From positions 1-64,000 of the forward strand of contig WHVD01000246.1 in assembly GCA_015178975.1 (NCBI GenBank): a stretch of DNA of 64,000 bases, given 5' to 3'. Of the stretch, positions 1 through 32,426 are shown one piece after another. The position numbers and the translations under genes were made by a program. The notes under the pieces were generated by a model, which did not search any database, was not told where the DNA came from, and was given only the letters and a program-made list of their open reading frames with translations. Position 1 is the stretch's first letter; each line of letters begins with the position of its first letter. This stretch comes from Hysterangium stoloniferum (lineage: Eukaryota > Basidiomycota > Agaricomycetes > Hysterangiales > Hysterangiaceae).

Positions 1-372
1 TCTTTTAAAAAATTCTTTTTCCACAGCTCCTATTCTGTCGCATTGGAAAACCGGACTTCCCGCTCATTGTTGAAACGGACGCCTCCGACTATGCACTTGG
101 AGCCATTCTCTCTATCCAGGACTCCGACGGAGAAGTTCACCCCGTGGCTTTTCTGTCCCGGACTTTTACCGGAGCAGAGCTCAACTACGACGTTCATGAT
201 AAAGAACTTCTGGCAATCTTTTCAGCTTTCAAAGCATGGCGACACTATTTGGAAGGTTCAGGAGCTCCTATTGACGTTGTAACAGATCACAAAAACCTGG
301 AATACTTTTCTACCACAAAACTCTTGAACCCGTCGGCAGGCCCGCTGGTCTGAATATCTCTCCGCCTTCAAC
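1..372 (+). pseudogene. pol: RNase H fragment of Ty3/gypsy pol (element A)
   Basis: The left edge cuts into the end of reverse transcriptase/RNase H of a chromovirus. Read with frame changes, the region gives the typical Ty3 RNase H blocks: ETDASDYALGAILS near 90-130, VAFLSRTF near 145-165, NYDVHDKELLAIF near 183-220 and DVVTDHKNLEYFS near 275-310. Two single-base insertions break it, one in the CCC run near 58-60 and one in TTGAACCC near 327-331. Removing each would restore the frame, so they are either very recent mutations or assembly errors. The 5' LTR, gag, protease and most of RT lie outside the window. Confidence 0.85.
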
Positions 373-2061
373 ATGATTATCCATTTTCGACCCGGCCGTC
401 TCGGCGGCAAACCCGACGCTTTAACTAGACGATGGGACGTCTATCCTAAAGAGGGGAGCAACGACTATGCAACGGTAAATCCGCACAACCTGAAACCTAT
501 CTTCACGAATCAACAACTTACCGCATCGGTCCGCGCAACTTTCCTCGTCAATCCCATTGTCCGTGGAATTATCATTATGGATATCGAAAAGTTACATCAA
601 GATATTCTATCGGCAATTCCGCTAGACCCAGTTACTAAAGCTCATCTGGACAATCCCGTGGACCCTGATCAACCTCGGTGGTCTCTTGATCAACATGGTT
701 TCATTAGACTTGACGATCGTATCTATGTACCGGACTCCGGCGGCCTCCGCCTCAGGATCCTTCAATACAAACATGATCATCCACTCTCAGGACATTTCAG
801 GTACAACAAGACTCTATCATTAATAAGAAGAGAATATACTTGGCCCGGACTCCGTGGATTCATTAAGCACTATTGTAAATCTTGCACTACTTGTCCCCGC
901 TCGAAATCTCAGCGACACAAGCCATACGGCCTTTTGAAACAACTCCCGGTACCGGAACACCCGTGGAATTCTATATCTATGGATTTCATTGAACACCTAC
1001 CGGATTCCGAAGGCTTTTCCGCTATCCTAGTCGTTGTTGACAGATTCTCAAAACAAGGTATATTCATCCCTACTTATGATACAATTACGTCCGTGCAGTT
1101 AGCGGAACTTTTTATTATCCACATATTTTCCAAGCACGGAGTTCCGTCCCACGTGACTTCCGATCGAGGATCAGAGTTCGTGTCTCACTTCTTTAGATCC
1201 CTCGGAAAATCCTTGGACATGACATTACATTTCACGTCCGGACATCACCCGGAAGGTGACGGACAAACCGAACGCGTCAACCAGACATTGGAACAATACC
1301 TCCGCGTATATTGCAACTATCAACAGGACAATTGGAAAACCTTGTTACCACTTGCAGAGTTTGCTTACAACAATGCACCCTCGGCCACTACTGGCGTTTC
1401 CCCGTTCTTTGCAAATAAAGGATATAATCCAAATATTACAGTACATCCAGAACGAAATCTCGCCTCTGGTCGTGCTCAAGAGTTCACCACGGACCTCCAC
1501 GAGCTCCACGAGGAACTCCGGACTGCAATATTGTCCGCCCAAGAGCAATACCAACATTCAGCGGACAAACACCGGATCCCGCCACCAAACTTCAAGATTG
1601 GCGACCGTGTTTATGTCAAAGCTCAATTCTTCCGGACTACCCGTCCATCAAAGAAGCTTGCTGAAAAATATTTAGGTCCCTTTGAAATTATCGCACAAGT
1701 AGGTTCAGTTTCTTGGACTCTACGGCTTCCGGATAGCATGCGCACGGTACACCCGGTATTTCATGTCTCTATGCTAGAACCTTGTACTGCTAACACTATC
1801 CCGGATCGCGTGCAATCTCCGCCTCCTCCTGTCGTCATTGACGGAGAACCCGAGTTTGAAATCTCTCAGATTTTAGATTCAAAAATTGACAAGCGTCGAC
1901 GCACTTGTAAACTGCTTTACTTGGTCAAGTGGGCGGGTTACGAGGGCACCGATGAAGAAACCTCATGGATTTTGGCCACGGAACTCGGTAATGCCACGGA
2001 AATTGTTACTGACTTTCATACAGCTTACCCACTCAAACCTGGACCATTATCGTCTCTCTGA
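373..2061 (+). CDS. pol: Integrase and chromodomain part of chromovirus pol (element A)
   Basis: This 562-codon open stretch is the continuation of the RNase H above, not a separate gene; its first ATG is internal to Pol. Integrase inserts the cDNA into the host chromosome. Visible parts: an H2C2 zinc domain at about residues 130-180 (HDHPLSGHF, then CKSCTTC), and the integrase core with its acidic triad in SMDFIEHL (about residue 203), SDRGSEF (about 263) and DGQTERVN (about 298). A C-terminal GPFEII/HPVFHVSML segment follows, then a chromodomain at about 493-540 (EFEISQIL, YLVKWAGY, SWILATEL), which in this clade guides integration to modified histones. It is free of stops and CpG-rich, so element A is young. 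The stop at 2059-2061 lies 203 bp from the end of the convergent antisense gene. Confidence 0.9.
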   Translation: MIIHFRPGRLGGKPDALTRRWDVYPKEGSNDYATVNPHNLKPIFTNQQLTASVRATFLVNPIVRGIIIMDIEKLHQDILSAIPLDPVTKAHLDNPVDPDQPRWSLDQHGFIRLDDRIYVPDSGGLRLRILQYKHDHPLSGHFRYNKTLSLIRREYTWPGLRGFIKHYCKSCTTCPRSKSQRHKPYGLLKQLPVPEHPWNSISMDFIEHLPDSEGFSAILVVVDRFSKQGIFIPTYDTITSVQLAELFIIHIFSKHGVPSHVTSDRGSEFVSHFFRSLGKSLDMTLHFTSGHHPEGDGQTERVNQTLEQYLRVYCNYQQDNWKTLLPLAEFAYNNAPSATTGVSPFFANKGYNPNITVHPERNLASGRAQEFTTDLHELHEELRTAILSAQEQYQHSADKHRIPPPNFKIGDRVYVKAQFFRTTRPSKKLAEKYLGPFEIIAQVGSVSWTLRLPDSMRTVHPVFHVSMLEPCTANTIPDRVQSPPPPVVIDGEPEFEISQILDSKIDKRRRTCKLLYLVKWAGYEGTDEETSWILATELGNATEIVTDFHTAYPLKPGPLSSL

Positions 2062-2264: not shown

Positions 2265-3247
2265 TCAGTCTACATTTATGGGACTATGTTTTTTCCCCTC
2301 TGCCTCAGCTACCTCCTCAGGGAGCTCCGCGACCTCCGCGGCAACCCCGTCCTCATCCGATCCGGCATCCTCGGAACTCCCGACTTGCGGCTCTTCAAAG
2401 ACATAGCCGCCATACTCTGCCAGGAACTTCCAAAACTCCTCGCGGAGTCCGGACAGCTCCTTTGCCACCACAATTTGGACTTTGTTGCTCTTCCGGAGCA
2501 ACTCGTTTTGGGCCTCGATGCCCTCGGCGATCCGTCCAAGGACCTCGTCCAACCCGGACAACCCGTCCGTCCCGCTTATGTCTCGCGCCCCGGATCCCGT
2601 GGCCTGCTCGTGCACAAGCGAGCACCTCGCCTTGAGGTGCGCGCATTGATAACATCCCGGCCCCCGGCCGGCCTTTCGGTTGCATTCCGTGTTCCGGTCA
2701 TTGCAACCGGAACACCGCGGCTCGTTCCGCGTTGGAAGACGGACTGGCGCCGCCTTCCTTGCCTTCTGTTGAGTTGGTCAGTCTCCGCGGGTATTCCATG
2801 GACATGAGGCCTACCTTTTGGGGGCTCTCTGGCTCCCCCTCGGACTCGGACTCCACCTCTGTCGCTTTGCGCTGAAAATCACAAGTCAGTAAAAAATCGA
2901 CAAGTGAATTTGGGACTTACTTTTCCCGCAACAATGGCGGCCCTCTCCGCGGCCAACCGGGCTTTCTCTGCAGCCACCCGGGCGTTCTCCGCGGCCACTC
3001 GCGCAGCCTCCTCCGCCTCACGTTCCCTCTCCTTTGCGGCCTCTTCCTCCGCGGCCAATGCTTCCTGGTACTCTTTGTCCAGGGCCTCCTCAGCCTCCCT
3101 CGCCTCTCTCTCTGCTGCTTCACGAAGCTGGCGCTGCTCTTCTCGCCGCGCCAACAATTGGGCTGCCGTCCACGGTGCCCGATACGGAGTGCCCGTGGAG
3201 GGCCCTGCTGTCGGCATTGGCTTGCGTGGTGTTGGTTTTGGTCCCAT
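2265..3247 (-). CDS. Antisense spliced accessory gene: coiled-coil plus Zn2Cys6 protein
   Basis: This gene lies inside element A between pol and the 3' LTR but runs opposite to pol. I read three exons: 3247-2921 (109 codons), 2871-2815 (19 codons) and 2765-2265 (166 codons plus stop). The two introns are 49 bp each (2920-2872 and 2814-2766), with GT...AG ends (GTAAGT donor in intron 1), and all junctions keep phase 0. The 294-aa product starts MGPKPTPRKP. A long charged Ala/Glu-rich coiled coil spans about residues 25-108 and an acidic stretch about 112-125. At 145-175 the cysteines follow CX2CX6CX9CX2CX6C, the pattern of the fungal Gal4-type binuclear zinc cluster, a DNA-binding domain. A second helical, acidic C-terminal half follows. 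No stop or frameshift is present. The start was chosen because homologues at 41556 and 52849 start at the matching place, each about 50 nt after a TATA box. Function is unknown; DNA binding and regulation of the element are inferences. Confidence 0.8.
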
Positions 3248-3294: not shown

Positions 3295-3307
3295 ATTTTT
3301 TATATAG
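3295..3307 (-). promoter_or_regulatory. TATA box of the antisense gene
   Basis: On the minus strand this reads CCTATATAAAAAA, about 50 nt upstream of the ATG at 3247. The equivalent genes at 41556 and 52849 have TATATAAA at 41503-41510 and ATATAAAA near 52790-52798, with the same spacing to their start codons. This argues for a dedicated promoter rather than read-through from the LTR. Confidence 0.65.
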
Positions 3308-3340
3308 GCTCGTCGCATTTGAACCTTACCTTCCAGATCA

Positions 3341-3396
3341 CATGACTCTTTGACACATACGTGTAACCGACATGACTTTTGACACATGCGCGTAGC
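3341..3396 (-). promoter_or_regulatory. Tandem ~28-bp motif upstream of the antisense promoter
   Basis: Two direct copies (3341-3367 and 3371-3396) of a unit with a palindrome-like core ACAYRCGYGT next to TTGACACAT and CATGACT. Two tandem 30-bp copies with core ACACATATGTGTCA lie at the same position before the homologous gene (41409-41468), and one looser copy lies before the family-B gene (about 52738-52775). Conservation in old and young copies suggests a regulatory site; the binding factor is unknown. Confidence 0.5.
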
Positions 3397-3443
3397 CAAC
3401 AAGAACCTTATTTAGGTCTAGAGCCTCTTTGGGACTTCGGCAT

Positions 3444-3456
3444 AAAGGGAGGATAC
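3444..3456 (+). other. Polypurine tract of element A
   Basis: AAAGGGAGGATAC directly abuts the 3' LTR, the normal place of the plus-strand primer of LTR retroelements. The inverted old copy has the matching AAAGGGAGGGTAC at 41354-41366. Confidence 0.75.
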
Positions 3457-4065
3457 TGTTACGACCGGGCAAATCCCGCCGGACTCCGGGCACTAACTCG
3501 TACGCCCCCACGCGCTACAAGCACCAATCGTCTGTTTATAGGATTTCCCGCCCGGACTCCGTTACGTCAAGACTCGTTACGTTCGACCTCATTAAGACAC
3601 ATATCAGTCACTGGACTTCCCCCGGACCCCGTCTCTGTCTATGTCCGTCTTCGTCCCACGCATCAGTCACCGGACCCGCTTAGAATCCCGTCACCGCTCT
3701 AATCGAGCCCCGTTCCCGTTTTAGTCAAATGACCTGTCACGATTTAGGACTCCGCTCCCGCTCCGTTTCCCGTTATGGGTTATGCTTTGTCACGATTCGG
3801 ACTCCGCTCCGTTCCGTCCCGTTCCTAACACCAATTTGGTGTTTACTATTCCCGTTCTATGTTTTGCTCGTTTCGTCTCATTATTACTGGATTCGGTATG
3901 TCATGCATTCCACGGTCTATATAAACTGGCAGATGTTGTACATACAATCCAGTCAGAAAATTAGCTTAGATTCCCCCCAGTAATCTAATACATTTTCCTC
4001 TCTAAAACCCTACTCTTATCAGACCGCTCGCACTAGTCGGAGCCCACGGGCTCCGGCGCATCTAT

Positions 4066-4139
4066 CTCTCTCGACTATCTCGATTCACGACTCTCGACTC
4101 ACGACTCTCGACTCACGACCTACGACTCACGACCCACGA
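4066..4139 (+). repeat. CGACTCTCGACTCA short tandem repeat in LTR A
   Basis: Imperfect tandem repeats of 7-14 bp (CGACTC, TCACGA, CTCTCGACTCA) in the transcribed part of the LTR. A shorter, diverged version lies near 56535-56585 in the solo copy, so repeat number varies between copies. Confidence 0.6.
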
Positions 4140-4185
4140 ACCCCCGCCCGGACTCCCCGGGATTCCCGTCCACCTGTCTGAAATT

Positions 4186-4234
4186 GGACAACACGATCTA
4201 GCGAGGGTGCAGCCTATAAGCTGAAGCCAAGTCC
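4186..4234 (+). other. Conserved ~50-nt LTR fold, representative copy
   Basis: Arrangement: GGAC, about 18-25 variable nt, GGGTGCAGC, a six-base loop usually ending AUAA, GCTGAAGCC, AA, GTCC. GGAC pairs with GTCC, GGY with GCC and CAGC with GCUG. Copies with both ends: 4186-4234, 4586-4638, 9235-9287(-), 12645-12692, 37489-37541, 39018-39069(-), 40672-40720(-), 49535-49587(-), 52015-52066, 56633-56681 and 63928-63980. Partial copies: 10738-10775, 14365-14398, 35955-36010 and 40403-40438(-). The LTRs otherwise differ widely. Hairpin changes from CAGC/GCUG to CAAC/GUUG (14365, 40403) keep pairing, so a folded RNA is likely. Function unknown. Confidence 0.6.
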
Positions 4235-4289
4235 TACCGGATATCCTGCGGGTTTCTCCGGAAACCCGGCCTGAGTGTGTATCCTAACA

Positions 4290-4692
4290 CTTATTTGTCA
4301 ATACCGCTTTCCACTCTTCTCCTAGTTAGTATTTTCTAGACGCTCAATATTTGTATATGAACCTGCTGTAGTTGTAGTTACTAGGCAATCAGAATATCGA
4401 CTCAGAATACCCTATTACACCTCTAGCAGTCTCATACTAAGTACTCCACTATCTGCCTCCACGTGCGCTTGCCCACTCTCAGTCTCCACCCCCTCAGCCC
4501 GACACTCAACTTATCCTTCAGTTCCGATTGGTAGTCTTACCAAGAGGTATTTGTTAGGACTAGTCTTTGACCATCCGAAATTTAAGGACACCTGATGGAT
4601 AATTGCAAGGGTGCAGCACATAAGCTGAAGCCAAGTCCTTCCGATCAGTCCCTGTCAGCCTACCCACATTAGTCAATTTTCAGTTCTTAACA
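4290..4692 (+). repeat. Right half of a family-B LTR interrupted by element A
   Basis: Matches the last ~400 bp of the full B LTRs at 36873-37594 and 63314-64000 and ends TTCTTAACA. Element A inserted at CTTAT within it. The B LTR itself sits in the copia-type gag relic after CATGT, which matches the uninterrupted sequence near 15450. Its left half is outside the window. Confidence 0.8.
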
Positions 4693-5230
4693 CATGTGTT
4701 CATTGAAAAACAACAACTTGCACAATCGGAACTCATCCTTGGCATTGAACTGGAGCAAATTCCATCATCTCTTGGGAAAATTTGGGCCAAGTGCATGTCA
4801 CCTGCAGATTCACATCACATCACACTCTTTGCTGCCACTTCCTAACCATGAAGAAAGATGACACACAGAGGATGCAGCTATGGATTGCCACTGTGAAGTT
4901 CACAATGCTGACACTACCCTCCATCATTGGCTCAAAACCCGTGAAGAAGAAAAAATGATTCTAGTCCTCACCAACAGCCTTGATGACTCATATGACAAGT
5001 TCATTGTCAGCTTGGATTACATTCTGCCTGAACAACTCACCCTCAAATATATCATCAATTGTCAACTCAACAAGGAGCTGGGCCAGCTTGGCCCTCATAC
5101 TTTATCTATACTTAATAATCATTTTGAAACCCAGGCCCTTTTCACTGCCCATGGCTGTACAGTTTAGTGCCCCCTAAATGTCCAATGTTTTAATTATGTA
5201 TGGTGGATGAGGTCATGATGGGACTGACTG
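4693..5230 (+). pseudogene. gag: Copia-type gag relic (copy 1)
   Basis: The reading-frame piece with MILVLTNSLDDSYDKFIV and LPEQLTLKYIINCQLNKE resembles the UBN2/copia Gag pattern (a Leu-rich segment after a Ser-Tyr-Asp core). Downstream a zinc-knuckle remnant (CFNY...GTDC) is visible but broken. Stops and frameshifts occur throughout. It is about 90% identical by eye to 15447-16065 and belongs to the duplicated segment. Confidence 0.6.
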
Positions 5231-9066: not shown

Positions 9067-10144
9067 TGTCAACATCCACATTGGCATGTCACTTTCCCCA
9101 TATCCAAAATAGATCCTTTCCACAAAGGGATTACTATCTACATTGCCACTGTTGATGCCACCACATGTACAGTGAAGGTGTGTTAAGAACTGAAAACTGA
9201 CTAATGTCGGTAGGCTGACGGGGACTGATCAGAAGGACTTGGTTTCAGCTTATATGCTGCACCCTCACAATTATCCATCGGGTGTCCTTAAATTTCGGAC
9301 GGGTGGAGACTAATCCTAACGAATTCCTCCCGGTGAGCTACCGATCAGGACTGAAGGATAAGTCAAGTGTCGGGCCAAGGGGTCAGAAGCTGAGAGTGGG
9401 TGAGCGCACACAAAGGCAGATAGTGGAGTACTTAGTATGAGACTTCTAGAGGTGTGAGAGGGTATTCTGAGTCGATATTCTGATTGCCTAGTAACTACAA
9501 CTACAGCGGGTTCATATACAAATATTCAGCGTCTAGAAAATACTAACTAGGAGAAGAGCGGAAAACGGTATGACAAATAAGCTTGACTAGGAACGGGAAG
9601 GTTACAATTAGTTCAGAGGCTGTGAGATAACCGAGAGTGGGATTACGAGAAAAGGAAATAGTCTGAGGGTTACAAGTATATATAGACATGTGTGAAACAT
9701 AGAGTAGAATGGATCATCATAATAAAAGGGACATATCAGAGTTTAACCAGATAGTACAAGTATATTTGACATGGGTGTAAATGGGGTTTGATCACCACAA
9801 AGGCATACGTCAGCATCGGGAGACCGTCGGTTTCTGATGTGAGGACTTGAACAATGACTTGAATCATTGATAGGTGGCGATAACCTTGGGGACCATCGGG
9901 TTGCGACATGGTCATAACAAGGTGTTGTGTTATCTTTTTGTCACTCACCCCCCCATTCACCGATGCTGATGGATCCCCCTTACACTACTCAGTCTTCCTT
10001 TCTTCAATGCAGGAGCCCTTACTAAAAGCAAGCTACAATCCTGCCTCCTTTGCAGGGCACTCCTTCTGGCAAGGTGCTGCCTCCACTGCAGGAGAAGCAG
10101 GCTTTTCCACCATGAGGTTCATGTTGAAACAGCTCAATATGTAG
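9067..10144 (+). pseudogene. Fungal tyrosine-recombinase pseudogene split by a B LTR
   Basis: The 5' part (to 9180) reads VTFPISKIDPFHKGITIYI; the part after the LTR (9920-10144) reads PFTDADGSPLHYS, NPASFAGHSFWQGAASTAG and ends near LKQLNM. This matches the C-terminal catalytic region of eukaryotic tyrosine recombinases of DIRS/Crypton type, where the usual GHSFRRGAA box carries the conserved His and Arg. Here the two Arg positions read W and Q, as expected from CGG/CGA decay, so the enzyme would be dead. A frameshift lies near the C run at 9947-9955. The B LTR sits exactly in the frame with AGGTG duplicated. The stretch 8837-9066 shows nothing I can name. Confidence 0.65.
9181..9919 (-). 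repeat. Solo LTR, family B (739 bp), TSD AGGTG
   Basis: Inverted B LTR with tips TGTTAAGAAC and GTCATAACA, flanked on both sides by AGGTG (9176-9180 and 9920-9924). No internal region is attached, so it arose by LTR-LTR recombination. The shared fold lies at 9235-9287. Confidence 0.9.
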
Positions 10145-15363: not shown

Positions 15364-16065
15364 ATGGGAGCACTTCTCACTCTCAAGGATGTGTGGGACA
15401 TCATCAATGGTTTGGAAACTCAACTGCCTGGTTCACCCTCTTCAAAATTGGTCCATGTGTTCACTAAAAAACAACAACTTGCACATTTGGAACTCATCCT
15501 TGGCATTGAACTGGAGCAAATCCCTCACCTCTATGAAAATGATCCTATCATCTCTTGGGAAAATTTGTGCCCAGTGCATGTCATCTGCAGATTCACACCT
15601 CATCTCACTCTTTGCTGCCACTTCCTAACCATGAAGAAAGATGACACATAGAGGGTGCAGCTATAAATTGCCACTGTGAAGCACACCTCACAATGCCTTA
15701 GCCATTGTGACCAGTCCTCCATCAAATGACATGGACACTACCCTCCATCATTGGTCAAAACCTGTGAAGAAGAAGAAACAATTTTAGTCCTCACCAACAG
15801 CCTTGATGACTCATATGACAAGTTCATTGTCAGCTTGGATTCCATTCTGCCTGAACAACTCACCCTCAAATATGTCATCAATTGTCAACTCAACAAGGAG
15901 CCAGGCCAGCTTGGCCCTCATACTTTATCTATAGTTAATAACAATTTTGGAACTCAGGCCCTTTTCACTGCCTGTGGCTGTACAGTTTACTGCCCCCCGA
16001 ATGTCCAATGTTTTAATTATGGTGGATAAAGTCATTATGGGACTGACTGCCCCCAGCCCTAGGGC
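15364..16065 (+). pseudogene. gag: Copia-type gag relic with zinc knuckle (copy 2)
   Basis: Contains LKDVWDIINGLETQLPGS, LTNSLDDSYDKFIVSLDS and LPEQLTLKYVINCQLNKE, the last two typical of UBN2/copia Gag. The knuckle near 16005-16050 reads CFNYGG, a stop, then SHYGTDC: CX2CX4HX4C with the second Cys changed to Tyr and a stop inside. It is non-functional and is the homologue of 4693-5230. Confidence 0.6.
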
Positions 16066-20465: not shown

Positions 20466-21491
20466 TTACAATCTAATACTTTGTATGACCCCCTTTGCCT
20501 TTAAAACTGCCTGTATCCTCCTAGGCATGCTTTCTATTAGCTTCTGGCATGTCTCTGGTGGTATTTCAGTCCACTCCTTTGCCACCCTGTCCCATAATTC
20601 ATGTACTCCTTTGGGTGGTATGTCATATTGTTGGAGTTTGGCCTTGAGGTGTTGCCAGAGGTGTTCAATGGGATTTAGATCAGGGGATTGGGCAGGCCAC
20701 TTCATGGGAATTATGTTATTGTCAGAAAACCACTGGTCTGCCTTTTTTGAGGTATGTTTTGGATCATTGTCTTGTTGGAAGTACCAGTTATCCTCAGCCA
20801 TCTCCAAACTTTCAATGCTCTCCTCCACTCCCTCCTCCAAAATCTCACAATACTGCACTGCATCCATGTTCCCCTGCATCTCTATCAGCTTCCCCACCCC
20901 ATTCCAGCCCATCAACCCCCAAACCATCAAGTTATTCCCCCCTCCATGTTTGACAGTTGGTGTGGTGGTCCCATCTGATACTGGTTCCTCTTGTTGCTTC
21001 CAAACATATACCTTCCCATCTGACCCAATCCTATTCATTTTTGTCTCATCAGTCCACAACACCATCTTCCAGTCCTCCATAGTCCAATTTTTATGGTATT
21101 GGGCAAACTTTAGATGTTGCTGATGATGAGACCCCTTGAGCATAGGGACTTTCTTCTTTGTTGCTGACCTAAAGCCAGCTTCCTTCAACACATTCCTAAC
21201 AGTCTGAGGAGTGACAGAGGTAGATATGATGGAATTTATGAATTGGGTGGCTTGGACAGCATTGTCAAGCTTCCCAGAGCTGATTTGACAGATAATTGAC
21301 TGTTTATTATAAGGGAAAAGCTTGGAAGAATGGCCGTCAGGATGATTTTCCTTATCCCTCTCTACCTCCCTACTGATCCTGCCAATAGTACCCTTCCCCA
21401 GGCCAGTCCTAGGTTGAATTTGACAATGGGAATACCCCTCACTGAGGAGAGAAACAACAGAAGAATACTTTTCAGCAGAGATGGATTTCAT
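20466..21491 (-). CDS. Tc1/mariner transposase, DD34E, 341 aa, uninterrupted
   Basis: Cut-and-paste transposase. The N-terminal third (about residues 5-120) has two helix-turn-helix-like segments (KYSSVVSLLSEG..., TPQTVRNVLKEAGF) that bind the inverted repeats. The catalytic core shows D in LWTDETKMN (about 150), D in YFQQDNDPKHTS (about 245) and E in SPDLNPIEHLW 34 residues later, with WGLMGW between. Length is typical and no stop or frameshift is present, so the protein could be active. However, element F splits the upstream part of the transposon between the gene start and the right terminal repeat, so this copy probably cannot move normally though it might act in trans. Confidence 0.9.
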   Translation of the reverse strand: MKSISAEKYSSVVSLLSEGYSHCQIQPRTGLGKGTIGRISREVERDKENHPDGHSSKLFPYNKQSIICQISSGKLDNAVQATQFINSIISTSVTPQTVRNVLKEAGFRSATKKKVPMLKGSHHQQHLKFAQYHKNWTMEDWKMVLWTDETKMNRIGSDGKVYVWKQQEEPVSDGTTTPTVKHGGGNNLMVWGLMGWNGVGKLIEMQGNMDAVQYCEILEEGVEESIESLEMAEDNWYFQQDNDPKHTSKKADQWFSDNNIIPMKWPAQSPDLNPIEHLWQHLKAKLQQYDIPPKGVHELWDRVAKEWTEIPPETCQKLIESMPRRIQAVLKAKGVIQSIRL

Positions 21492-21610
21492 AGTGGTGGT
21501 AAGGAGTCAAGGAGATGAATGAACAAAGATAAACATGCCAAATTGATACAAATAAGGTCACATGACATGTTGATGATTCACATGACCCACCCCTACCTTA
21601 TACTAGTGTG

Positions 21611-22240
21611 TGTGAAGAGTAGTGGAAGTTCTAACCGTTCTATATACGAAGAATATCGACCATTTAGGTACGACACTAAGATGTATTGACTGTCGAAGTC
21701 TAATACAGAATGAACGCGTATTGACTACTTAGTTCAATATGGTAGAAGGAAGTAGCTATCTAGAATAAGGTAGAGAGCTAAAACGAATAAGTAGAATCGA
21801 CTGTCAAGTGCGATTCTGAACGACTGCTCGAGAGTAAAGTAGAGTACTAGAGAGTCGAATAATAGAATAGTGTGGATGTGGTCCATGCGAGTTGCGATAA
21901 GGATTGAGTTTCGACTGGTACAGTTCGAAACTCTGATAGAGTAGATAGCTAAAGCCCATCTGTGACGGTCGAGACAATACACCAATCACAACTTACAGGA
22001 CACTAATGGGTGTCTGGGTAAGTCGTGGTTGCGGTGTAAAAAGTGTCTGAGTTCTAAACTACGGGCGCTAGAATACATAAGTCTGGTGTGTGTGCGCCCA
22101 CAAGAGTCGATGTACCACATACATAGGTCGTCGAACTAATTATAGATATAATAAAAGAGAGAAAATAGAAATAATAAAGGAAATATAGTAAGAGCTCATA
22201 CGACTATATTTCCTGAGTGTATTTTGCCATACCTCTCACA
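21611..22240 (-). repeat. 3' LTR of element F
   Basis: Tips TGTGAAGAG and CCTCTCACA. Adjoins the polypurine tract at its right end and the GTGTG duplication at its left. It does not contain the fold shared by families A, B, C, D and M. Confidence 0.95.
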
Positions 22241-22251
22241 GTGCCTCCCAG
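22241..22251 (-). other. Polypurine tract of element F
   Basis: Minus strand CTGGGAGGCAC directly before the 3' LTR, similar to the GGGAGGATAC tract of element A. Confidence 0.6.
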
Positions 22252-22265
22252 GTCGAAGAGCTATG

Positions 22266-23087
22266 TCAAAGAAGATGTCGAAGGACGCTTGGAACTCCTC
22301 CCCATGCATCCTGTGATGAACCCCCAAGGTGTAGGATAGCGTTGCCCCAGGCGAGACGCTTGGCACGAAAGGAAAGAACGATGTCCTCCCGCCTTGAAGC
22401 ATCATTGACGGATGTCAACCCATCCAGTTTTTGGATCGATGAGACCCAACGACCGTAGGGCTTCTGGTGCATTCAAATTATGGCGCGAACGCGATCAGTG
22501 GAAGCATCAGTAATACGGGCAATGAGAGGGGGTCAAGGGTGTAGTGATGGCGGGGTAGGAGTGATGAGCAGTGTGGAGCTCATGTCTCCCCCAGGGGGGA
22601 TTCCTCTCGAGGTGTCCAAATCCGGCAACAGTTGCTCCAACAAGTCAACGAGGTCCACTGCAGAGTGGGTTGGTGTGTGGTCAGGAAGAACACAAGAAGA
22701 GTTGACAAGTAAGGACCGAAACATGGAGAGTTCCACCCGTTCGATATCCTCCGCTAAACGCAGCTGTTCCTTAGGGTCGTTGACACATAAATAAAATGCA
22801 CTCATGCGGACCGACAACGTGAGAGACTCGCTATACCCCTGGATATGCCCTTTAAGAAGGGGGTGCCGCAGGGTTGGTCCCAGTCGCATTAATGTGCGTC
22901 CCATAGTGAAGATGTCGGAGGGGTAATTAATGGACACGCGCATCCAACTTGATGGAAAGGGATGGGAGGGGCCAGCCGTATCCTCAGAGTGGAGGGGAGA
23001 GGACGGCTGCAGTGGGGGGCTGCAAATGGGGTGGGCCGGGGGGGGTCCATGACAAGGGGCTTGTTGGCCTGAGTATCGGTTCTTCAT
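22266..23087 (-). pseudogene. End of the 3' accessory coding region of F (part b)
   Basis: Starts MKNRYSGQQ and runs in one frame to LHLGGSSQDAWGGVPSVLRHLL just before the polypurine tract, with two TGA stops (near 22533 and 22473). Homologous to 55231-54638, which ends LDLGGSSQEAWGGVPNALRHLV. Conserved blocks include VSINYPSD, SMFRSLLV and VDLVDLLE. Function unknown; the position is that of env genes but I see no signal peptide or membrane segment. In the relative this part is in the same frame as part a, so the split here probably comes from a frame change. Confidence 0.6.
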
Positions 23088-24745
23088 TTCCCTTTTGCTT
23101 TTTCACTTAAGGGGGGAGGCTCCTCAAAGGCTTCCATTGCTGGGGGGGGTTCCTTGAAGACATCTGTGGCTGAGAGAGGCGTCTCGAGGATTTCCTCCAT
23201 AGGTGTTGCGAGAACGTCCGGGATAGGGTGATCAATATCCATTAATGTATCATTAGGATGCTGAATGGGGCTTCCCAGAGAAACACAAGGGGAGTAGGGA
23301 GAGGTGGGCGGTGGACTCTGCATTGTCAAGGAAGTGAGGGGAATGTTAGACACCGCAGGGACTAAAGGCGTCAGAGTAGAGTGGGAGGCGACGAGAAGGT
23401 CAGGTGATGTGCGGAGGGGTGAGATTGGCTGTGGTGCTGGAGAAGGCTTGGGTATGGATGAGGACGGTGATATAAGGGAATGTCCTGCGAAGGGGAGGGG
23501 TAGTGGTATAGGGGGAAGAGAAGGCAGCTCGGCAGATGGTACAAGACTTCCCGGTAACTCTGAAAAGGGTGTAAAGCACTGTAATGTGGGTACGGAAGAG
23601 ACCGGCGGAGGTGGAGGGAGATGAGAGGAACTGGATGGGGTCACAGAGTCTGCTGGACGATACCCTCTCCAAACTCTGATGGAAGTTGGTAGCTTTCGTC
23701 GTTGGTTAGGATCACTCGTGAAGAAGTGAATGTTGTCAGGGAGTAGGAAACCTTCATGGCAGTCAGCACCGAGGTACTTGCTGTCGTAGGTGGGGTAGCA
23801 AGATTGGTTGTCCTCCGAGTCAGATGAAAGATCACCGGGCCCCATCCGGTAGGTCCGTTCCTGAGGTCCATGTTGTGAAGGGGGTCTGGGAGGTAGTGCA
23901 ACTCCATCTCCACGTCACAATGCAATGCTTTGTAATTTGATCCTTCGTACTTTGTCCCAATCGTAGAAGGTGACCCCATCTTTTCCTTTCCTACTTTTTT
24001 GTCCTACACTCTGAACACATGGCGTGCCCCCATCACTGCAATCCATTTCAGCGAAATCCGTCCATTTATGACCCGAAGGGGGAGCGATGATTGAAGGATT
24101 ATCGTGCCCTTCCATTCTCCTCCATTCCTGCCATGTCCACCTTGAAGGGACATTATCCCTAGCCCCCATCCTCTGCTGTCCTTCCAAGTACTCCTCTCTC
24201 CTCTTCCGTTTAAGCGTTTTCAATTCCTCCTGAACCTGCGCAGAGAAAGCCTCAGACTGCTGTTTCTTTTTGATCTCCTCTTCGGTAGAAGGGAAAATAC
24301 TATGAGAAGGTGGTGAGGTTTCACTCCATGTTCCCGAGGGAGCCCCCCAAGTATTAGAGGACCATGGTGCAGCTTTTGAAATGGAGTCCGTCCGTGTAGG
24401 ATTTGTGGACGATGAGGTCTCCTCCACACGCTCGACAGTTTCTGTTCGAGGTGATGGGGTAGAAGGAACTGTAGTTTGAGGTCGAGGTATTCTTTTAAAA
24501 TTGGGAAATCGGGGTCTGGGAAGAGGAGCGTATGGAGTAAAGGCGGTTCCGTTCCCCGAGTTGGTGGACGTTCCCGCGATGTCGCCCTGCACAGCGGAGG
24601 GTATTGGCAAAGGCGTTCCAGAATTACTCATGGAGTGCTCGACTTGTTCAGTACGAGATGGCGTGGTAGAGGTATTAATAGGTTGAGGTCGCGGTATTCT
24701 TTTGAAGTTGGGGAACTTGGGTTTGGGTTGTTGCTCCTGCGACAT
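23084..24745 (-). pseudogene. 3' accessory coding region of F (part a)
   Basis: One frame from MSQEQQPKPKF to SEKAKGK with a single stop near 23915-23917. Proline- and serine-rich. The motif FPNFKRIPRPQ occurs twice (about residues 11-21 and 79-89). A charged helix with KTLKRKRREEYLEGQQR lies around 180-200. A block conserved with the relative at 55873-56000 and 56742-56960 reads GVTFYDWDKVRRIKL, then YLGADCHEGFLLP, TSDPNQ and VWRG. Conservation in two diverged elements argues for a real protein. No known domain recognised. Confidence 0.6.
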
Positions 24746-24940
24746 AGTGTACTGATTAGAGAGGTTGATGTGGAGGGAAGAGATAGGGGGAATAAAATTT
24801 TCTTTAGTGAATTTACGTATTTTATATTAATTTCAAGCTCTGCTCGGTTATTGAAGTGAAAGGCCGAGGGGGAAGAAAGTGGGGGGGTAGAGCTATAAGT
24901 AGATAAACAGTGTTGTCGTCGTAAGGATGTGAAATGATCA

Positions 24941-27900
24941 TTAAATTCGATAAATAGTCTTGTAAGCTCTAAGAAGAGCGGGAGCGTTACAAAGGTCATT
25001 GCCGTTTAACCAAGTGTCCTCCTCCGGTCCATATCCTTTCTATCGAACCTGGAAAAGGAGTCGATTTCGATGCTTTTTGTGCCCTACTCTAGCTTCTACT
25101 TCGTACTCCTCGTCGTTACGATTGAGTTCTCGAGGGTTCTCGAGTAGCTCCCTGGATCCGAATTCCTTAGGGGAGAGGTGGTACTTTTTAAGATGGTCTT
25201 GATTAATCACTGGATGTAATTGATATTCCGAGGGAATGCGGAGTCGGAAGACTTGAGGATTGATCTTTTCCAAGACCTCAAATGGCCCTATCCGTCTTTG
25301 TATAAGTTTTCTTCCGGGTCCTTTGGCTTCGATGAGCTCGAGAGAATGGGGATTAATCAGAACATAATCTCCCTCTGAGATATCTTCCACTAATCTCCGT
25401 CTCTTGTTGTAACTGCGAGCTTGGGTTTCTTGTGCTCACGCAATTGAATCCCATGCTGCTTGTTGGTGATTTTCCAATTCTAAGATCCATTGGTCGGCTA
25501 CAGGGCTATCTGATAATTCTCTGGGAACCACAGGGTCGTCCCCTCCCAGACAGCTAGACATTCCTCTTGGTAAGTAGCCCATCAGCAAAAACGCTGGCGC
25601 ATAGCTCATCGAGCTTTGAACCATCGAATTGTAGGTATGAGCCACTACTTGAGTCCATTTAGACCATTCCTCCTTCGAAGAGGTGCAGTACGCTCTGAGC
25701 ATTTGCTCCACAATAGCATCAGTGTTCTCCATTTGACCGTCGGTCTGAGGATGGTGGGACGAGGATACTGCAAGGGCACTTCCGTATACTTTGCAGACTT
25801 CTCTCCAGAACCTACAGGTCCACGTCTTATCTCGATCACAGATTATCCTTGAAGGCAGGCTGAAAGGAGCGGCTACTTTATTCACGAAGATTTGCATGAA
25901 TCCTTCTGCAGATAGATCTGAAGTGGTGGGTTCACAGATTAAGAAATGCGTGAGTTTATCCACGGTGACGAAGATGGTGGAATAACCACCCTCTGTAGAA
26001 GGAGGCAATCTGGTAATCAGGTCCATCGAGACAACCTCAAACGGCCTTAGGGGTACATCCACGGGTCGAAGAGCTCCTTGTCGAGCGGAATGATCAATTT
26101 TAGTTTTCTGGCATATGTCGCAGCTGCAAGCGTACACCACGCAGTCATGCAACATCCTCGGCCAGAAGAAGTGGTCTTTCATCAGATTAAAGAGCCTGTG
26201 GCTGCCTGCATGAGCTCCTTTGAAAGGATTATCATGTATCAGCTTGAGTATGGTTGTCGTCATGCTGCTAGGAACGCAGATTCGACTTTTCCAGTCCGAA
26301 TCTCGAAAGAACAATAACTTATTCTTGCCGATGAAATAATGCGAAGGAGTAGTTACCATGTTTGGAGAAATGGGATCGGTGGCGTAATGATTTCTGAAGG
26401 TGGGATCCTTCTGGTATCCATCGCGAAGTTCTTTAGCGTAATTTTCGTCAATCTCTATAAGCAATTGTGGATTCGAGAGAGCAAAATTCGCTTCATCGGT
26501 TTCATCATTTCTGGGGAGATTGTGCAAGTCCCATTTCGTTTGGGGGACCTCTTCCATGGTTCCGACTGGTTCGACTAACTCATGATGAGTGAGAAAGACG
26601 GCTTTTTCCGCTGGTTTGTTCTCCCATAACGTCTCATTGTCATTCCGGTTATAAGAATCCGCTAAGATCGGTAAAAGGTCGTCTCTCGTGGGGCTAATAT
26701 AGTCCGGTACTCGAGGAAGTCTGGACAGTGGGTCAACATTGCTATGTATTCATCCTGCTCTATGTAGGATTTCCAGACCGGGGTATGCAGCGTTTACCGC
26801 CCCCCATGCAGCCAGTCGACGATTAGTATTCTCGTAAGATCTGGCCCATTGTAATGCCGCATGGTCAGTGATCAGAAGGATATGTTCGCCTTTGATAAAG
26901 GGCTGGAAATGGACTAATCCTTCTTTAGCGGCTAACGCTTCTCGCTCTGTGGCTGAATAGTTACATTCTGCTTTCTTGAGCATATGGCTCCAATAGGCGA
27001 TAACGCATTCGACCGTGACACTGGTGTCGTCAAAATTTGCGGCCCAGGAATCCGTCCAGGTGAATTCCAGCTCCTTGGTTTTATAACGAGTAATGAAAAT
27101 GGGCACGTCTCGTGATTGATCAAAGGCTACTCGTGCTTGGGCATAAATCTTTGTATCCTTAAGGTCTTTAAGCGTCATTTTCTGTATTTGTTGGAGACAA
27201 CATCCTAGCACAAAGTCTGAAGCATCTGTGTATAACCGATAAGGCATACTGCTCGCGGGGTGTCCAAGTACTGGAGCTGAGCTCAACACAACCTTGATGT
27301 CCTCAAAAGCTCAGGCATGTTCAGAATCCCAATTCCAATGAACTCCTTTCTTCAAGAGGTTGAAAAGTGGAGCGACCGTCCAGGAGTAAAATGGTATGTA
27401 CGCGGAGAAGTACAGAACCATTCCTAGAAAACATTGAAGATCTGCTATCTTAGAGGGCGTCGCCAATTCTAATATAGCGGCGACCTTTTCTTGATGGGTC
27501 GAAAAGCCGAGTCTAGACACCTTATGTCCTAGTAGTAGAATCGAATTATACCCCACATAGCACTTTTTGGGTGAGAGAGTGATTCCCGCAGCAATTATGG
27601 CTTGTAAAATTTGATCTAAATGTTCTAGATGATCGTCCCATGTCTTAGAAAAGATCATGATGTCGTCAATATAAACCAGGCAGAATATCAATAAGTAAGG
27701 TGCAAGTACAGTTTGCATAACCCTTTGGAATATAGAAGGTCCATTACGAAGTCCAAAGGGCATTCTCCTGAATTGCCACAGTCCTCGATGGGATCTGAAG
27801 GCGGTCTTCGGCTTGTCTTCCTCTAACATTTCAAGTTGGGTAAAACCAGCTAGTGCATCGAAGGAAGACAAGATGTTGGAGCCCGAAAGCGCTTGCATGA

Positions 27901-29341
27901 TTTCCGACTGGCGTGGCAGTGGGAATTCGTCGGGAACTGTTAGACTGTTCAACTTTCTATAGTCGATCACTACTCGTGGTTTCCCATTGCGATAGATGAC
28001 AAAGGCTGGCGCCCCCCAAGGACTCTTGGACGGTTCGATTACTCCCTGTTGGAACCAAGTATCCATTTGTTCATCAATGACTTTCCTATTAGCTGGGGAG
28101 GTTGGGAACATTGACATTGAAATAGGTTGCGTGCCCTCTTTCAATGGGACATTGACCTTGACATCCACTTGTCCCAGTCGCCTGTCCACTCCGAAGGCTA
28201 GGACATTCTTAGTTAATACCGACTCCAAGTGGGAGGAGACATCGGTAGGGATGTCAGGTCCTAAGTTAACTAGCTTATGCAGATCTTCTGCACGAAACGT
28301 TTCCATGGTGGCAACCTCTGACGTTTTAGGACCTGCCGGGTCGAAATCGTCTGTGAGTTCCCATTCTGGGGGCAGTCCGGAGGATTGAGGATTAAGGACA
28401 CACTCCTCTTCTATTTTTGATAGACTCTCGATGAGATGGGCGATCTTGGTTGCCGTTGACTGCATCGATGCTTTCTCAGTCGAAGATCTAGGAGTCTGGG
28501 CCCATTTGTTCGCGTCGTGAATTAATCCAACAGTTTCCCCTCGTCTGATGATTCTTGGCATCAGAGAGGGATTAGCGAGAGGTATCGCGGCACGTTCCCT
28601 AGAGATGGTGGTGGTGGGAGCAGCTAGTATACTCCCATCGTTGTTCTGCAAGATAACTCCCTCGACTATCCATTGGTCACCAATAAGATCTCCTACAAAG
28701 ATTGGTACTAATCGAGCCGATTCCGGTTCTATAGTACAATCTTGTAAGGCCCATGCGACTCTTTCAGTACGCACTCCTTTGTCTGGTTTGGAAGTCAATT
28801 CAGGCGAGTCATTGGCTAATTCCTCAAAGGGGATCTTGCTAATCAAAAAGGTTAAAGGCTGCAGCTCCTTGGAAGAACTGGCTGGGATAGATCCTGCTCT
28901 CCCAGGCAAAATCAATCTGGAACCCAGCGGTTGGTCTCGCAGTGTCCCGATCTCATAGTTCACATGAAAGTCTTCTCCAAGAAGGATCGGGACGGTCATA
29001 CCTCGGACAACGTACGTTTCAGCGGTAAATTTAAGGAGTATACCGGTGTCATCCTCGAGATAAATGGGGACATTGACGTATCCTAATACTTTGGCATTAC
29101 CGGTAAGTTGTACGAGGCACAGCTTGAGTCCTTGCTTGAGTTTAGGGCGGTCCTCTAGTTCCTTATAGAAATCCTCTGAGATTAAGGAGAGGTCAGCTCT
29201 GGTGTCCAGCCTGATTTTAATAGGATTTGAGGCTTCTGAATTCCCTACGCATCCGTAGACGTGTAATGCTGAAATCCCAATACTGGAATATCCACCCGGA
29301 GGGTCCCTTCTGTGATAGATAATAGTCGAATCCTCTTTCAT
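24941..29341 (-). pseudogene. pol: Pol of element F: protease, RT, RNase H, integrase, chromodomain
   Basis: A single frame of about 1,466 codons with four internal stops (27311-27313 TGA, 26750-26752 TGA, 25436-25438 TGA, 25040-25042 TAG). The protease active site reads DTRA instead of DTGA (near 29200). RT (about 28130-27450) shows PWGAPAFVIYRNGKPR, RMPFGLRN and the catalytic YIDD. RNase H (27240-26800) shows LYTDASDF and TDHAALQW. Integrase shows HAG...CDICQKTK, then DLITRLP, CDRDKTW and DGQMENTD with all three acidic residues. A C-terminal chromodomain (EYEVEARVG, GYGPEEDTW) ends at 24941. The ATG overlaps the gag stop as ATGA. Confidence 0.85.
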
Positions 29342-32300
29342 AAGTCGACTGGATCAGGGGTATTGAATCTAGGTCTTTTGCTTTCTTTTCTTGCAGCCAG
29401 TTTGACGTTCCTCCTGATACATCTACCGTTAGGTACCTTGGGAGTGACGTTCGAAATAGAGTCGTCCACTTCAGAGTCTGACTCATCGCAAGGAATTAAG
29501 TCGGGTAATTGCCCTGGGTCAAAGGGGAAGCTCTCCTCCTCCAATCCCTCTGACTCAGAGGGGTCTTCTATAACATAGGTCTGACTTATTTCCTTAGATC
29601 GGTTTGCAAATGCGTCCTTGTCGACGATTTCCTCAATGGTGGGAGGTTCAGGTCGCGATAAAACTCTCATCTCAGTCAGACCTTCACGGTTCTGACGATG
29701 AGCGTCTAGCCAGTCTCCTTTCTCGAGAAAATCATGGTCTGATATAGAAACATAAACTTGCGATGTCTCGTTCTCATTCGAGGATGCTTTCACGTCTGAA
29801 ACGATGTTGTCCTCTGGCTGAGGAAGGTAGACAGAAATGAAAATCGATTCCTCATCAATGTTATGTACTTGTCCCTGTACACTTAATCCATAAACCATTT
29901 CATAAGCCCTTTGATCCTCTGCCTCCTCCATTGGGTTCTGCGTGGAGCACTTGTTAATAGAGACATAGTGCGACATCCTGCCCGCATGGGGGCAGTTGAT
30001 CTTGAAATGCTCTAAACTCCCACAAATCCAACACTCCTTCAGAGGTTTGGCGATGCTTTTCTTGTCACTTCGTTCGAAAAAGAACTTGCCATGTTTCTTA
30101 CCCTGCTTAGTGTTCAATCTCCTAGGGACAGTTTTATCCTCGAGTTCGCCGAGGAGGACGTGACTTTGGTTAGTGGGGTCGATTCCTCCAGAGTGTTCTT
30201 CCTCATGCCAGGGATCCGACTCGTCTTGCTCAGCGATCATGACTCTAGGCTTTTGGAACTGATAACACTCTCGATGTGTTTGAACCCAAGCATTAATCAG
30301 AGCCTCTTGTAAATTGTTCGCATAAGTCTGCAAGCTCATGATGTCATCGATAGGTTGTCCCTGTAGAAGGTAAAGCCATTCCGTGGGCAGTGTCAGGATA
30401 AGTCTGTGCGTTTCGTCCTTCCGGTTTTGGTGGAACCCATACAAGAATCGATAGAGCTTGACCCTTCGCTGAATGTAATGAATGGGTGTCTCATGATTGT
30501 GACCGGCCTGTCGAAATTTCATGGCTTCCCATTCTAGAGCCAAGGATTCGCGCCAACGAGTTCCAAGTAATCCTTCTACGATGCCCCAAAGAAACGATCC
30601 GTGAGATCGACTAAATTCAGTGCGATGTTCACGGTCTAGGGTGCTCCACCAGATCTTAGCACTGCTGGTGAGTCGTCTTGGCAGAGCGACTCCCAACAAT
30701 GTACTCATGGAGTCAGAGATCTCCGAGAGGCTCATAATATCCATGATGTAATCCAACGCCTTGGATTGAGTCCCATCGTATTCGGGAAGGTCTGACCATT
30801 TGATCTTGATGTCGTTGGTGTTAAGAGCGATCCTTTTATCCTTAGGTAAGTCATCGATAGGCACACTGGCTCGAGGCTGCATCGGAGTTTGAAAGGGAGA
30901 GTTAGGTACTCTACTGTGATGCCCCCCCACGTCCCGAATTCCCTCCATAGCTTGAGGTACTAGAACTCCCAGATGAATTACTAGGAGGTCCTCCCGATGG
31001 CAGAAAGGGATTGGAGGAGATCGGCAGGGAATGGCGAGGATTGACTGGATTCAGCGATCCTCGACCAGCAACCTGACCAGCTATACCCTCGGTGAATGCA
31101 GTGGAGAAAGACGGTCGACCCCTGTTGGCGACTGATCGATTCCTAGTCGTAGTTGGTTCATCGCCTATGTTCGTATTACCAGGGATTCATTTGAACGCGA
31201 CGTGAGAGTGGTGAATTTCCTGATGGGGGGTAGGGCTAGGTTCCATCGCGATCCCTCTCTCGATTTCGACCGTATTCAAAGGTCGACGAGGTTGGGGTTG
31301 ATAGAGGGGGATGCATATTTCCATTCCTTTTTCCTGAAGACGTTCCGCAACTTGCATCCTCATGTCTGACAGGAAGTCTTGCAAAATAATGGGACGATTG
31401 AGTGAATGAAGGAAACGAGTGTCGGGAGATCCATTCAGGGTACGAACAAACGAACTGGTTGTGGAGATGGGCGAATCAGGTACCTAAATGGAATCACCAT
31501 AAGGGTGAAGCACCTCCAAAACCATCTTATCGAGTCTTCTCTGATTTCGCCTTAACTGACCCCTTAAGGTAAAATACGCAAATGAAGAATTCCGAGTAAT
31601 CCCGTTAAGAGACTCCTCCAGCATCTGAATGTATATATACTGGTAGTCGACTTTGGAAACAATGTGATCCCCACCGAGTAGGACATGAAGGATTTGTAAC
31701 ACATCATCGTGCGTGCGGAGCGCTTCGAGGAATGAAGAGAACACTTCTTGTTTAAGAACCATCCTCCCTCCTTCCATGACAGAAGTAACTTCACTCGACC
31801 ATTCGGGAATCGAGCGAGTCAAATCCTCAAGGGTTCCAGGTCGTGTGAATAGATCCTGTGCCAATAAAATAGCCTGATAACGACCTAACCAGACTGCTAC
31901 AGTCACCGGTAAGAGGGGGTAGTCCATATTGTACTCCTCCACAAAGGGAGTAACCTGATCCGTAGAAATTCGATCAGCATAGTACGCATCCCATTGTAAG
32001 TCGATGGGCTGGGTGTAAATCATATGACCCCTAAAGAATTGCTTAAGGATGACCTGTTTAGGCGGGAACGAGAGAACGGGTTCAGGAGCACGGGTAGTTT
32101 CAACATTAGCTCCGGGGACGTTCAACTGCTCAGTTGACGGATGTTCTTCTCATGGACTTGGAGGGGCATCCATTGACAGTCCAACTACTGCTTCAACGGA
32201 ACTTCCGGGAGGAGCTGGTTTTTGAAAAGTCAATGAAGACTTCCTCATGGTGATGTTACGGGGTGGTTCCAGACTTGCAGGTCTTTGACGAGGTTTTGAA

Positions 32301-32350
32301 CTACTCGGGGTCATCGAAGATCTCGGCATTTGGTTCTTGCCAGTGGTCAT
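29338..32350 (-). pseudogene. gag: Gag of element F
   Basis: About 1,000 codons once the breaks are taken into account. The N-terminal part (32350-31187) has in-frame TGA near 32150, TAG at 31484-31486 and TGA at 31187-31189. A change of frame occurs at the G7 run (C7 on plus, 30922-30928). The capsid part includes WSDLPEYDGTQSKALDY, KIWWSTLDREHR, WREWS-like WRESLALEWEAMKF and HYIQRRVKLYRFLYG. The zinc knuckle CWICGSLEHFKINC (CX2CX4HX4C) lies near 30030-29990. The last codons overlap the pol start by ATGA. The stops are explained by C-to-T change at CGA or CAG codons. Confidence 0.75.
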
Positions 32351-32407
32351 TTACATGCTTAGAATTTGATAGTTGAAATAAATGTTTTTCTTCATAGGGA
32401 AAGAGCG

Positions 32408-32425
32408 GTCCGGCCCGGATCGCCA
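32408..32425 (-). other. Candidate primer-binding site of element F
   Basis: One base inside the 5' LTR the minus strand reads TGGCGATCCGGGCCGGAC, starting with the TGG expected for pairing with a tRNA 3' CCA. I cannot say which tRNA. Confidence 0.5.
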
Positions 32426-32426
32426 C

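Follow-up and report, generated by a model that had tools for sequence, protein, structure and literature searches.

The fungal LTR element Boty/BcGypsy1 of Botrytis cinerea is said to carry an additional gene in antisense orientation, brtn, according to Zhao et al. 2011. The gene is mentioned in the accessible parts of four further papers (PMC7264820, PMC8365987, PMC4227169, PMC5987419), one of which includes a chromodomain in the Gag-Pol of Boty (PMC4227169). In plants, the available text of PMC7264820 and PMC11963269 describes antisense open reading frames (aORFs) such as gene23 of maize Grande, that of rice RIRE2 and the TRP28 ORFs of Retand. Most of the antisense ORFs of the Retand clusters have a TRP28 domain which is predicted to bind DNA (PMC11963269, in part), and gene23 of Grande is credited with a promoter of its own and a product that is nuclear (PMC7264820, PMC11963269). 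Outside retrotransposons, HTLV-1 has a spliced antisense gene, HBZ, whose nuclear product contains a DNA-binding-type domain and lowers expression from the 5' LTR, and HTLV-2 to -4 encode antisense APH proteins, as stated in the accessible portion of PMC10186651. Finally, nuclear rDNA group I introns can contain antisense homing endonuclease genes which have spliceosomal introns of their own (PMC9548176, available text). PMC7264820, in its accessible part, gives the roles that antisense genes play in LTR retrotransposons as undetermined; the gene described here adds a case with clear protein-level selection, two introns, a cysteine cluster and a candidate promoter.

The host element and the layout of the antisense gene

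The window, by which we mean the whole stretch of 64,000 nucleotides that was analysed, is the start of contig WHVD01000246.1 (labelled G000:C164 in the 111-Mb assembly that was searched) of the basidiomycete Hysterangium stoloniferum, which belongs to the Hysterangiales, an order within the Phallomycetidae. The 5' part of the element is absent from the window because the contig starts inside pol. The remaining pol end gave Pfam matches to PF17921 (3.9e-18), PF00665 (5e-11), PF24626 (5.4e-21) and PF00385 (9.4e-07), and complete elements of about 8.1 kb, with pol between paired LTRs, were found elsewhere in the genome (C1:2162777-2170874 and C119:98910-107018). By its integrase, C-terminal chromodomain and paired LTRs, the host element is a Ty3-type chromovirus.

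The antisense gene occupies 2265-3247 on the reverse strand, with the chromodomain end of pol on one side and the 3' LTR on the other. Its spliced coding sequence of 885 nt, starting with the ATG at 3247, encodes 294 aa. An opposite-strand gene of this length, with two phase-0 introns of 49 nt in the interval between a chromovirus pol and its 3' LTR, had been proposed in an earlier note made from the letters of the window, and both the gene model and an alignment of 110 copies bear it out. The features of the locus are listed in Table 1.

Table 1 Features of the element end and of the antisense gene (positions in the window).
Feature	Position	Strand	Basis
pol 3' end: integrase zinc-binding (H2C2), integrase core, SH3-like, C-terminal chromodomain	328..2061	+	ORF, Pfam
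Antisense exon 3: six-cysteine cluster 146-176, linker, amphipathic helix ~196-247, acidic tail, stop	2265..2765	-	gene model, copies
Intron 2, 49 nt, phase 0, GTAGGC..CAG	2766..2814	-	gene model, copies
Antisense exon 2: Ser/Glu/Pro-rich, flanked by basic clusters KRK and KKARK	2815..2871	-	gene model
Intron 1, 49 nt, phase 0, GTAAGT..CAG	2872..2920	-	gene model, copies
Antisense exon 1: residues 1-109, Pro/Thr-rich start, then Ala/Glu/Arg-rich stretch	2921..3247	-	gene model, copies
TATA box (TATATA from 3306), 59 nt upstream of the antisense ATG	3301..3306	-	copies
Upstream block, predicted antisense promoter; contains a pair of 27-29-nt direct repeats (3349-3375, 3378-3404)	3311..3440	-	divergence, repeats
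Polypurine tract preceding the 3' LTR	3441..3456	+	by eye
3' LTR, TG..CA; search query 3458-4289; sense TATA 3918-3925	3457..4289	+	ends and TATA by eye, searches

Several other features of the window were recorded. Inside the LTR, a 14-nt unit (TCTCGACTCACGAC) is present four times in tandem at 4078-4133, and the LTR is flanked by diverged direct and inverted repeats (4693-5174 with 15454-15997, and 4301-4694 with 9179-9571); a frame at 4862-5167 looks, by eye, like a copia-type Gag. A second Ty3-type element lies on the reverse strand at 21611-32726, bounded by 300-nt direct repeats which are 96% alike (21611-21910 and 32427-32726), with a reverse transcriptase ORF at 27314-29353 and an integrase at 25439-26749. 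Downstream of its integrase are two frames on the same strand as its other genes, 23915-24826 (303 codons) and 23084-23914 (276 codons), which have no Pfam match and are possibly sense accessory ORFs. A further reverse-strand frame, at 20469-21506, contains DDE_3 and HTH_Tnp_Tc3_2 domains and corresponds to a Tc1-like transposase.

Copies of the gene, selection and splice sites

Within this one genome, copies of the antisense gene number well above one hundred. A protein search of the species' own assembly gave at least 199 match pieces (133 scored of 2115 candidates), and a search with the exon 3 piece gave at least 150 places (150 scored of 1245 candidates). The alignment used throughout comprises 110 loci, the window copy (L005) and 109 others, with further and mostly weaker places left out; rows L032 and L077 are clipped by contig ends and some rows are near-identical. 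An ATG-to-stop frame of 275-310 residues with both introns is intact in 64 of these 110 copies, which represent 60 distinct coding sequences and 52 distinct proteins.

The gene is closely tied to pol. A pol end was present at 108 of the 110 loci, on the strand opposite to the antisense gene in all 108, and an LTR start was found in 105 of the 110 stretches around the gene copies. Distances between copies of the gene correlated with those between the corresponding pol ends (104 loci; Mantel r 0.963, 0/999 permutations). Starting from the best 76 pol copies (76 scored of 6418 candidates), we found the gene within 2.5 kb downstream on the opposite strand in 70, and in none of the 76 was there a same-strand gene place downstream of pol among the gene places listed. 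The six without a listed gene place are a copy on C32, near a contig end, an element on C2 and four more. The C2 element (G000:C2:319504-326980) has both LTRs, which score alike against the window LTR, as well as pol and the upstream block, and is about 613 nt shorter between the pol end and the block. The absent stretch most likely belongs to the antisense gene. This element is probably a derivative in which the gene was deleted naturally, and it may have been mobilised in trans; as it lacks these ~613 nt, the antisense gene may be dispensable in cis.

Diversity among copies was 0.062, 0.064 and 0.161 at codon positions 1, 2 and 3, and 0.144 and 0.165 in the two introns, variation at third positions resembling that of the introns. 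Pairwise omega was 0.211 among 8 intact representatives (28 pairs) and 0.198 among 30 representatives (435 pairs), and four of the other five frames gave 1.1-1.6; the fifth, a sense frame which shares its third positions with the gene, gave 0.29-0.30 and contains three to four stops per copy. On a codon tree of the 60 intact sequences omega was 0.278, or 0.365 with transition bias (kappa 7.9), and a fit with omega fixed at 1 was worse by 171 log units (~105 with kappa near its best). By the same pairwise method, over 300 pairs, omega was 0.20 for the gene and 0.27 for the pol end. Decay of CpG was considered as a cause of the low omega, or of the high synonymous divergence of the gene (below), and rejected, as masking of CpG codons lowered omega to 0.14-0.15 and left dS high. 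The antisense frame is therefore under purifying selection, within one genome. The earlier note had named a dN/dS near 1 across copies in several species as speaking against the gene; within this genome such a value was not seen, omega being 0.20-0.37.

Synonymous divergence over the same pairs was about three times higher in the gene than in the pol end (0.68 and 0.195, the latter for the pol region 1300-2061). At four-fold sites of 15 older representatives, the values were 0.371 for the gene and 0.138 for the pol end, with introns at 0.25 and 0.34. Subfamilies may have exchanged segments of pol, or mutation may be faster near the 3' end; either could account for the excess.

The splice sites are conserved as well. 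Intron 2 begins with GT and ends with AG in 110 of 110 copies and intron 1 in 108 of 110, the exceptions being L052, which is without intron 1, and L077, which is shifted at a contig edge. Lengths of intron 1 range from 48 to 72 in 109 copies (0 in L052), and in the 64 intact copies they leave a remainder of 1, 2 or 0 after division by three in 35, 17 and 12 cases, respectively. As all three classes occur, nothing but the removal of intron 1 preserves the frame downstream of it. Furthermore, with dead copies included, only 4 of 183 indels in introns are divisible by three, as against 45 of 161 in exons. Splicing of both introns is predicted from the sequence. A genomic RNA of the sense strand would keep them, because they lie on the other strand, and therefore each new copy would carry the gene, its introns and its promoter. 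The earlier note had made the same argument that the introns stay in place as the element moves, and the conservation of both pairs of splice sites is as expected for travel in sense RNA. The locus illustrates a way in which an element can transport a gene with introns and still retain them.

That the open frame and its GT-AG sites arose by chance hardly deserves consideration. The region is GC-rich and other frames are open too in the window copy, but the signatures at splice sites and codon positions, the omega values and the shared divergence with pol refute such an origin in practice. It is also very unlikely that the antisense RNA alone matters, as a double-stranded RNA controlling copy number, with the frame being incidental. 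A regulatory role in LTR retrotransposons for antisense transcripts that form double-stranded RNA is discussed in the available text of PMC7264820; nevertheless, the codon evidence (omega 0.2-0.37) contradicts this explanation, and both the cysteines of the protein and the splice sites are conserved.

Upstream of the gene, the TATAWA motif is kept in 107 of 110 copies, in agreement with the proposal of the earlier note that the gene has a TATA box of its own. In 18 older copies, the difference from the window was 0.072 in the upstream block (3311-3440), 0.080 in pol, 0.130 in the spacer between pol and the gene, 0.116-0.184 in the LTR, and 0.129 and 0.247 in the introns. Across all 109 other copies, which are mostly young, the block (0.031) differed less than the spacer (0.074) and the introns (0.050 and 0.096) and was not below two of the three LTR parts (0.031-0.049). 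Constraint on the block is therefore visible in the older copies only, since over all 109 it is similar to the LTR. We predict from this pattern that the upstream block is the antisense promoter, although the sense strand may account for some of the constraint, through the polypurine tract and the 3' untranslated RNA.

The encoded protein and its proposed function

From the N-terminus, the protein consists of a Pro/Thr-rich region, an Ala/Glu/Arg-rich region, the KRK cluster, the acidic segment of exon 2, the KKARK cluster, the cysteine cluster, a linker, a helix and an acidic tail. Its only cysteines are those of the motif CX2CX6CX9CX2CX6C, at residues 146, 149, 156, 166, 169 and 176, and each of the six is kept in 109-110 of the 110 copies; the earlier note had read the same pattern, placing it one residue too early (145-175). 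Of the two basic clusters, one residue of the first (109-111) is kept in 0.77 of copies, and the second (128-132) is conserved at 0.98 or above. In the helix (196-247), 80% of a/d positions are hydrophobic in the best of 7 registers, compared with 44% overall, and the acidic tail has a net charge of -10. The coiled coil which the earlier note had put ahead of the cysteines is suggested by composition, but the heptad signal of the exon 1 stretch is weak (0.55 vs 0.47 overall). Based on these features, the antisense protein is predicted to bind zinc through its six cysteines, to dimerise through the helix that follows the cluster and to be imported to the nucleus.

Fungal regulators of the Gal4 type have a Zn2Cys6 cluster with the spacing CX2CX6CX5-12CX2CX6-8C, and in Gal4 basic residues lie between the second and third cysteines. 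The spacing in the antisense protein fits this pattern, and the linker and helix after the cluster and the acidic end are also as in Gal4-type regulators (PF00172). It differs from them in that the cluster is internal and in scoring below the Pfam cut-off. Basic residues between Cys2 and Cys3 are few, the stretch NDRNTE including a single Arg (conserved in 0.81 of copies), and K159, K173 and R175 hardly vary. That the zinc pattern is Gal4-type, as the earlier note had it, is consequently sustained for the spacing and not for the family. The HMM search against PF00172, on which that assignment was to be judged, gave an E of 4.2 with the whole protein, which is below cut-off, and weak matches, likewise below cut-off, in 27 of 32 exon 3 members (best E 0.022), most members thus touching the family. 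When residues were shuffled with the cysteines fixed, 2 of 9 shuffles matched PF00172 (E 0.04 and 0.29; real piece 0.19). AlphaFold models of exon 3 and of the 60-aa cluster had mean pLDDT of 55.6 and 56.2, the former placing helices, at low confidence, at exon 3 residues 36-49 and 69-118. Foldseek found no match in the PDB for the 60-aa cluster model, which is a poor model, and a profile search of PDB sequences matched the helix alone, to Talin-1 (E 0.16). With a Gal4-like cysteine layout, but a PF00172 score below cut-off, cysteine-fixed shuffles that score alike and no support from PDB sequences or the low-confidence models, we did not file the protein in the Gal4 family.

The genome does contain 42 PF00172 matches above cut-off. 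These true domains, together with the host-like introns, would suit a host transcription factor gene that was recently captured and is passively carried. Against it, none of the 42 lies at a gene copy, as judged by eye among the places listed, and no host homologue was found in the nr searches. Moreover, because the gene diverges together with pol and is under selection, it is neither recent nor passive, which makes such a capture highly improbable; an ancient capture of a host gene is possible.

We also looked for binding sites of the Gal4 kind. Per kb, CGG and CCG triplets together reach 69.2 in the gene, 62.5 in the LTR and 46.1 in pol, as opposed to 12.1 in the remainder of the window and 9.5 in the upstream block. 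These three parts of the element are about 4-6 times richer in the triplets than the remainder of the window, and the upstream block is poor in them. The palindrome CGGN3CCG exceeds shuffled expectation in the LTR (5 vs 0.5) and in pol too (6 vs 0.5). Across 27 full LTRs, CGG/CCG and CGGN3CCG sites were kept no better (0.952-0.956) than positions overall (0.954), CpG outside the triplets being kept at 0.884 compared with 0.912 for CpG overall, a slight hint in the opposite direction. The LTR of the window has 5 CGGN3CCG sites; of three old LTRs, one has a single such site and the other two have none. LTR-specific CGG/CCG binding sites were therefore discarded as a candidate, the triplets being dense across the element and CGGN3CCG in excess in pol too.

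Taken together, these features suggest a selected accessory gene whose twice-spliced mRNA would encode a nuclear, dimeric, zinc-binding regulator of the element's own transcription, a reading to which we assign a probability of roughly 0.5. The upstream promoter of the gene would produce an antisense transcript, which would undergo two splicing events before translation. A promoter and mRNA separate from those of the sense strand would allow a nuclear protein to be made apart from Gag-Pol, and the simplest role for a nuclear dimeric protein would be to tune transcription of the element itself. Should it bind DNA in the LTR or in the upstream block, the element would have a feedback control comparable to the one that HBZ provides in HTLV-1; that the protein binds DNA, and that its target is the element, we infer only. 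More specifically, the family could encode a zinc-cluster transcription factor acting as a feedback switch, HBZ-like and independently evolved in Ty3-type elements, a proposal that we make tentatively, as one falling somewhat short of an even bet.

VANC of a plant DNA transposon is an anti-silencing factor. In the same way, the nuclear factor described here could act on host silencing or chromatin rather than on the element's own promoter, an alternative we consider doubtful but still deserving weight. Silencing pressure is plausible given the high copy number and the strong transition bias among copies (kappa 7.9), and the LTR has no clear binding-site signature; nothing, however, points to host targets, and searches of Pfam and nr found no described protein related by sequence. 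Somewhat more unlikely is a structural or RNA/cDNA-binding accessory protein, involved in particle assembly or nuclear import of cDNA. Zinc clusters can bind RNA or protein, the basic clusters and helices would suit this role, and neither the structure models nor PF00172 confirmed a Gal4-type fold. Production from a separate antisense mRNA would nevertheless set the protein apart from the parts of Gag-Pol, and the cysteine spacing, together with the linker, the helix and the acidic end of the protein, is reminiscent of transcription factors.

Relatives and comparison with known antisense genes

No homologue outside Hysterangium was found in the nr protein searches (the first of which scored the 7997 candidates sharing most words), and none among IMG/VR viral contigs. 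The nr matches were two Hysterangium stoloniferum proteins only, of 201 and 163 aa, both unlike the gene model; that more than 100 genomic copies should correspond to two such records is a warning for annotators. Since transposon genes are frequently masked ahead of annotation, a lack of matches in protein databases is weak evidence, and the family may be wider than Hysterangium, hidden by annotated protein sets.

The earlier note knew of no retroelement with such a gene. This stands in so far as none with both a zinc-cluster motif and introns was found, but antisense genes are known elsewhere, in Boty and in plants, so that the kind is known. No retroelement with a zinc-cluster antisense gene is named in the titles and abstract openings of the literature searched, which leaves out most subscription journals. 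As far as that literature shows, what is new is the combination of a zinc-cluster-like motif, two introns and a basidiomycete chromovirus.

The locus resembles Boty/BcGypsy1 in being a fungal LTR element with a chromodomain Gag-Pol and an additional antisense gene (PMC4227169, accessible part). The likeness is one of description, and the host of Boty is an ascomycete; in the accessible portions of PMC7264820, PMC8365987, PMC4227169 and PMC5987419, neither a zinc cluster nor introns are mentioned for brtn. With the plant aORFs, the gene shares its place, its strand and its presence in most copies, according to the available text of PMC7264820 and PMC11963269. Of the features of aORF-3R, a site between pol and the 3' LTR, opposite orientation, presence in most copies and pol-like conservation were found here, and a promoter of its own is predicted from the TATA box and the upstream block. 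In contrast, the protein families differ, and neither source uses the word 'intron' or 'zinc' anywhere in its main text (PMC7264820, PMC11963269). The homing endonuclease genes of rDNA are likewise antisense, within a mobile element and interrupted by spliceosomal introns, the group I intron being otherwise unrelated (PMC9548176, available text).

Like HBZ and the APH genes, the gene is antisense, has splice sites and lies near the 3' LTR of its element (PMC10186651, accessible part). HBZ is a bZIP protein whose gene is transcribed from inside the 3' LTR (same source, PMC10186651), whereas the TATA box of the present gene is internal to the element, some 150 nt away from the LTR, and its protein has a six-cysteine cluster; Pfam gave no match to a bZIP domain in the 294 aa. 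If the proposed role is true, the strategy of HBZ would be placed outside retroviruses.
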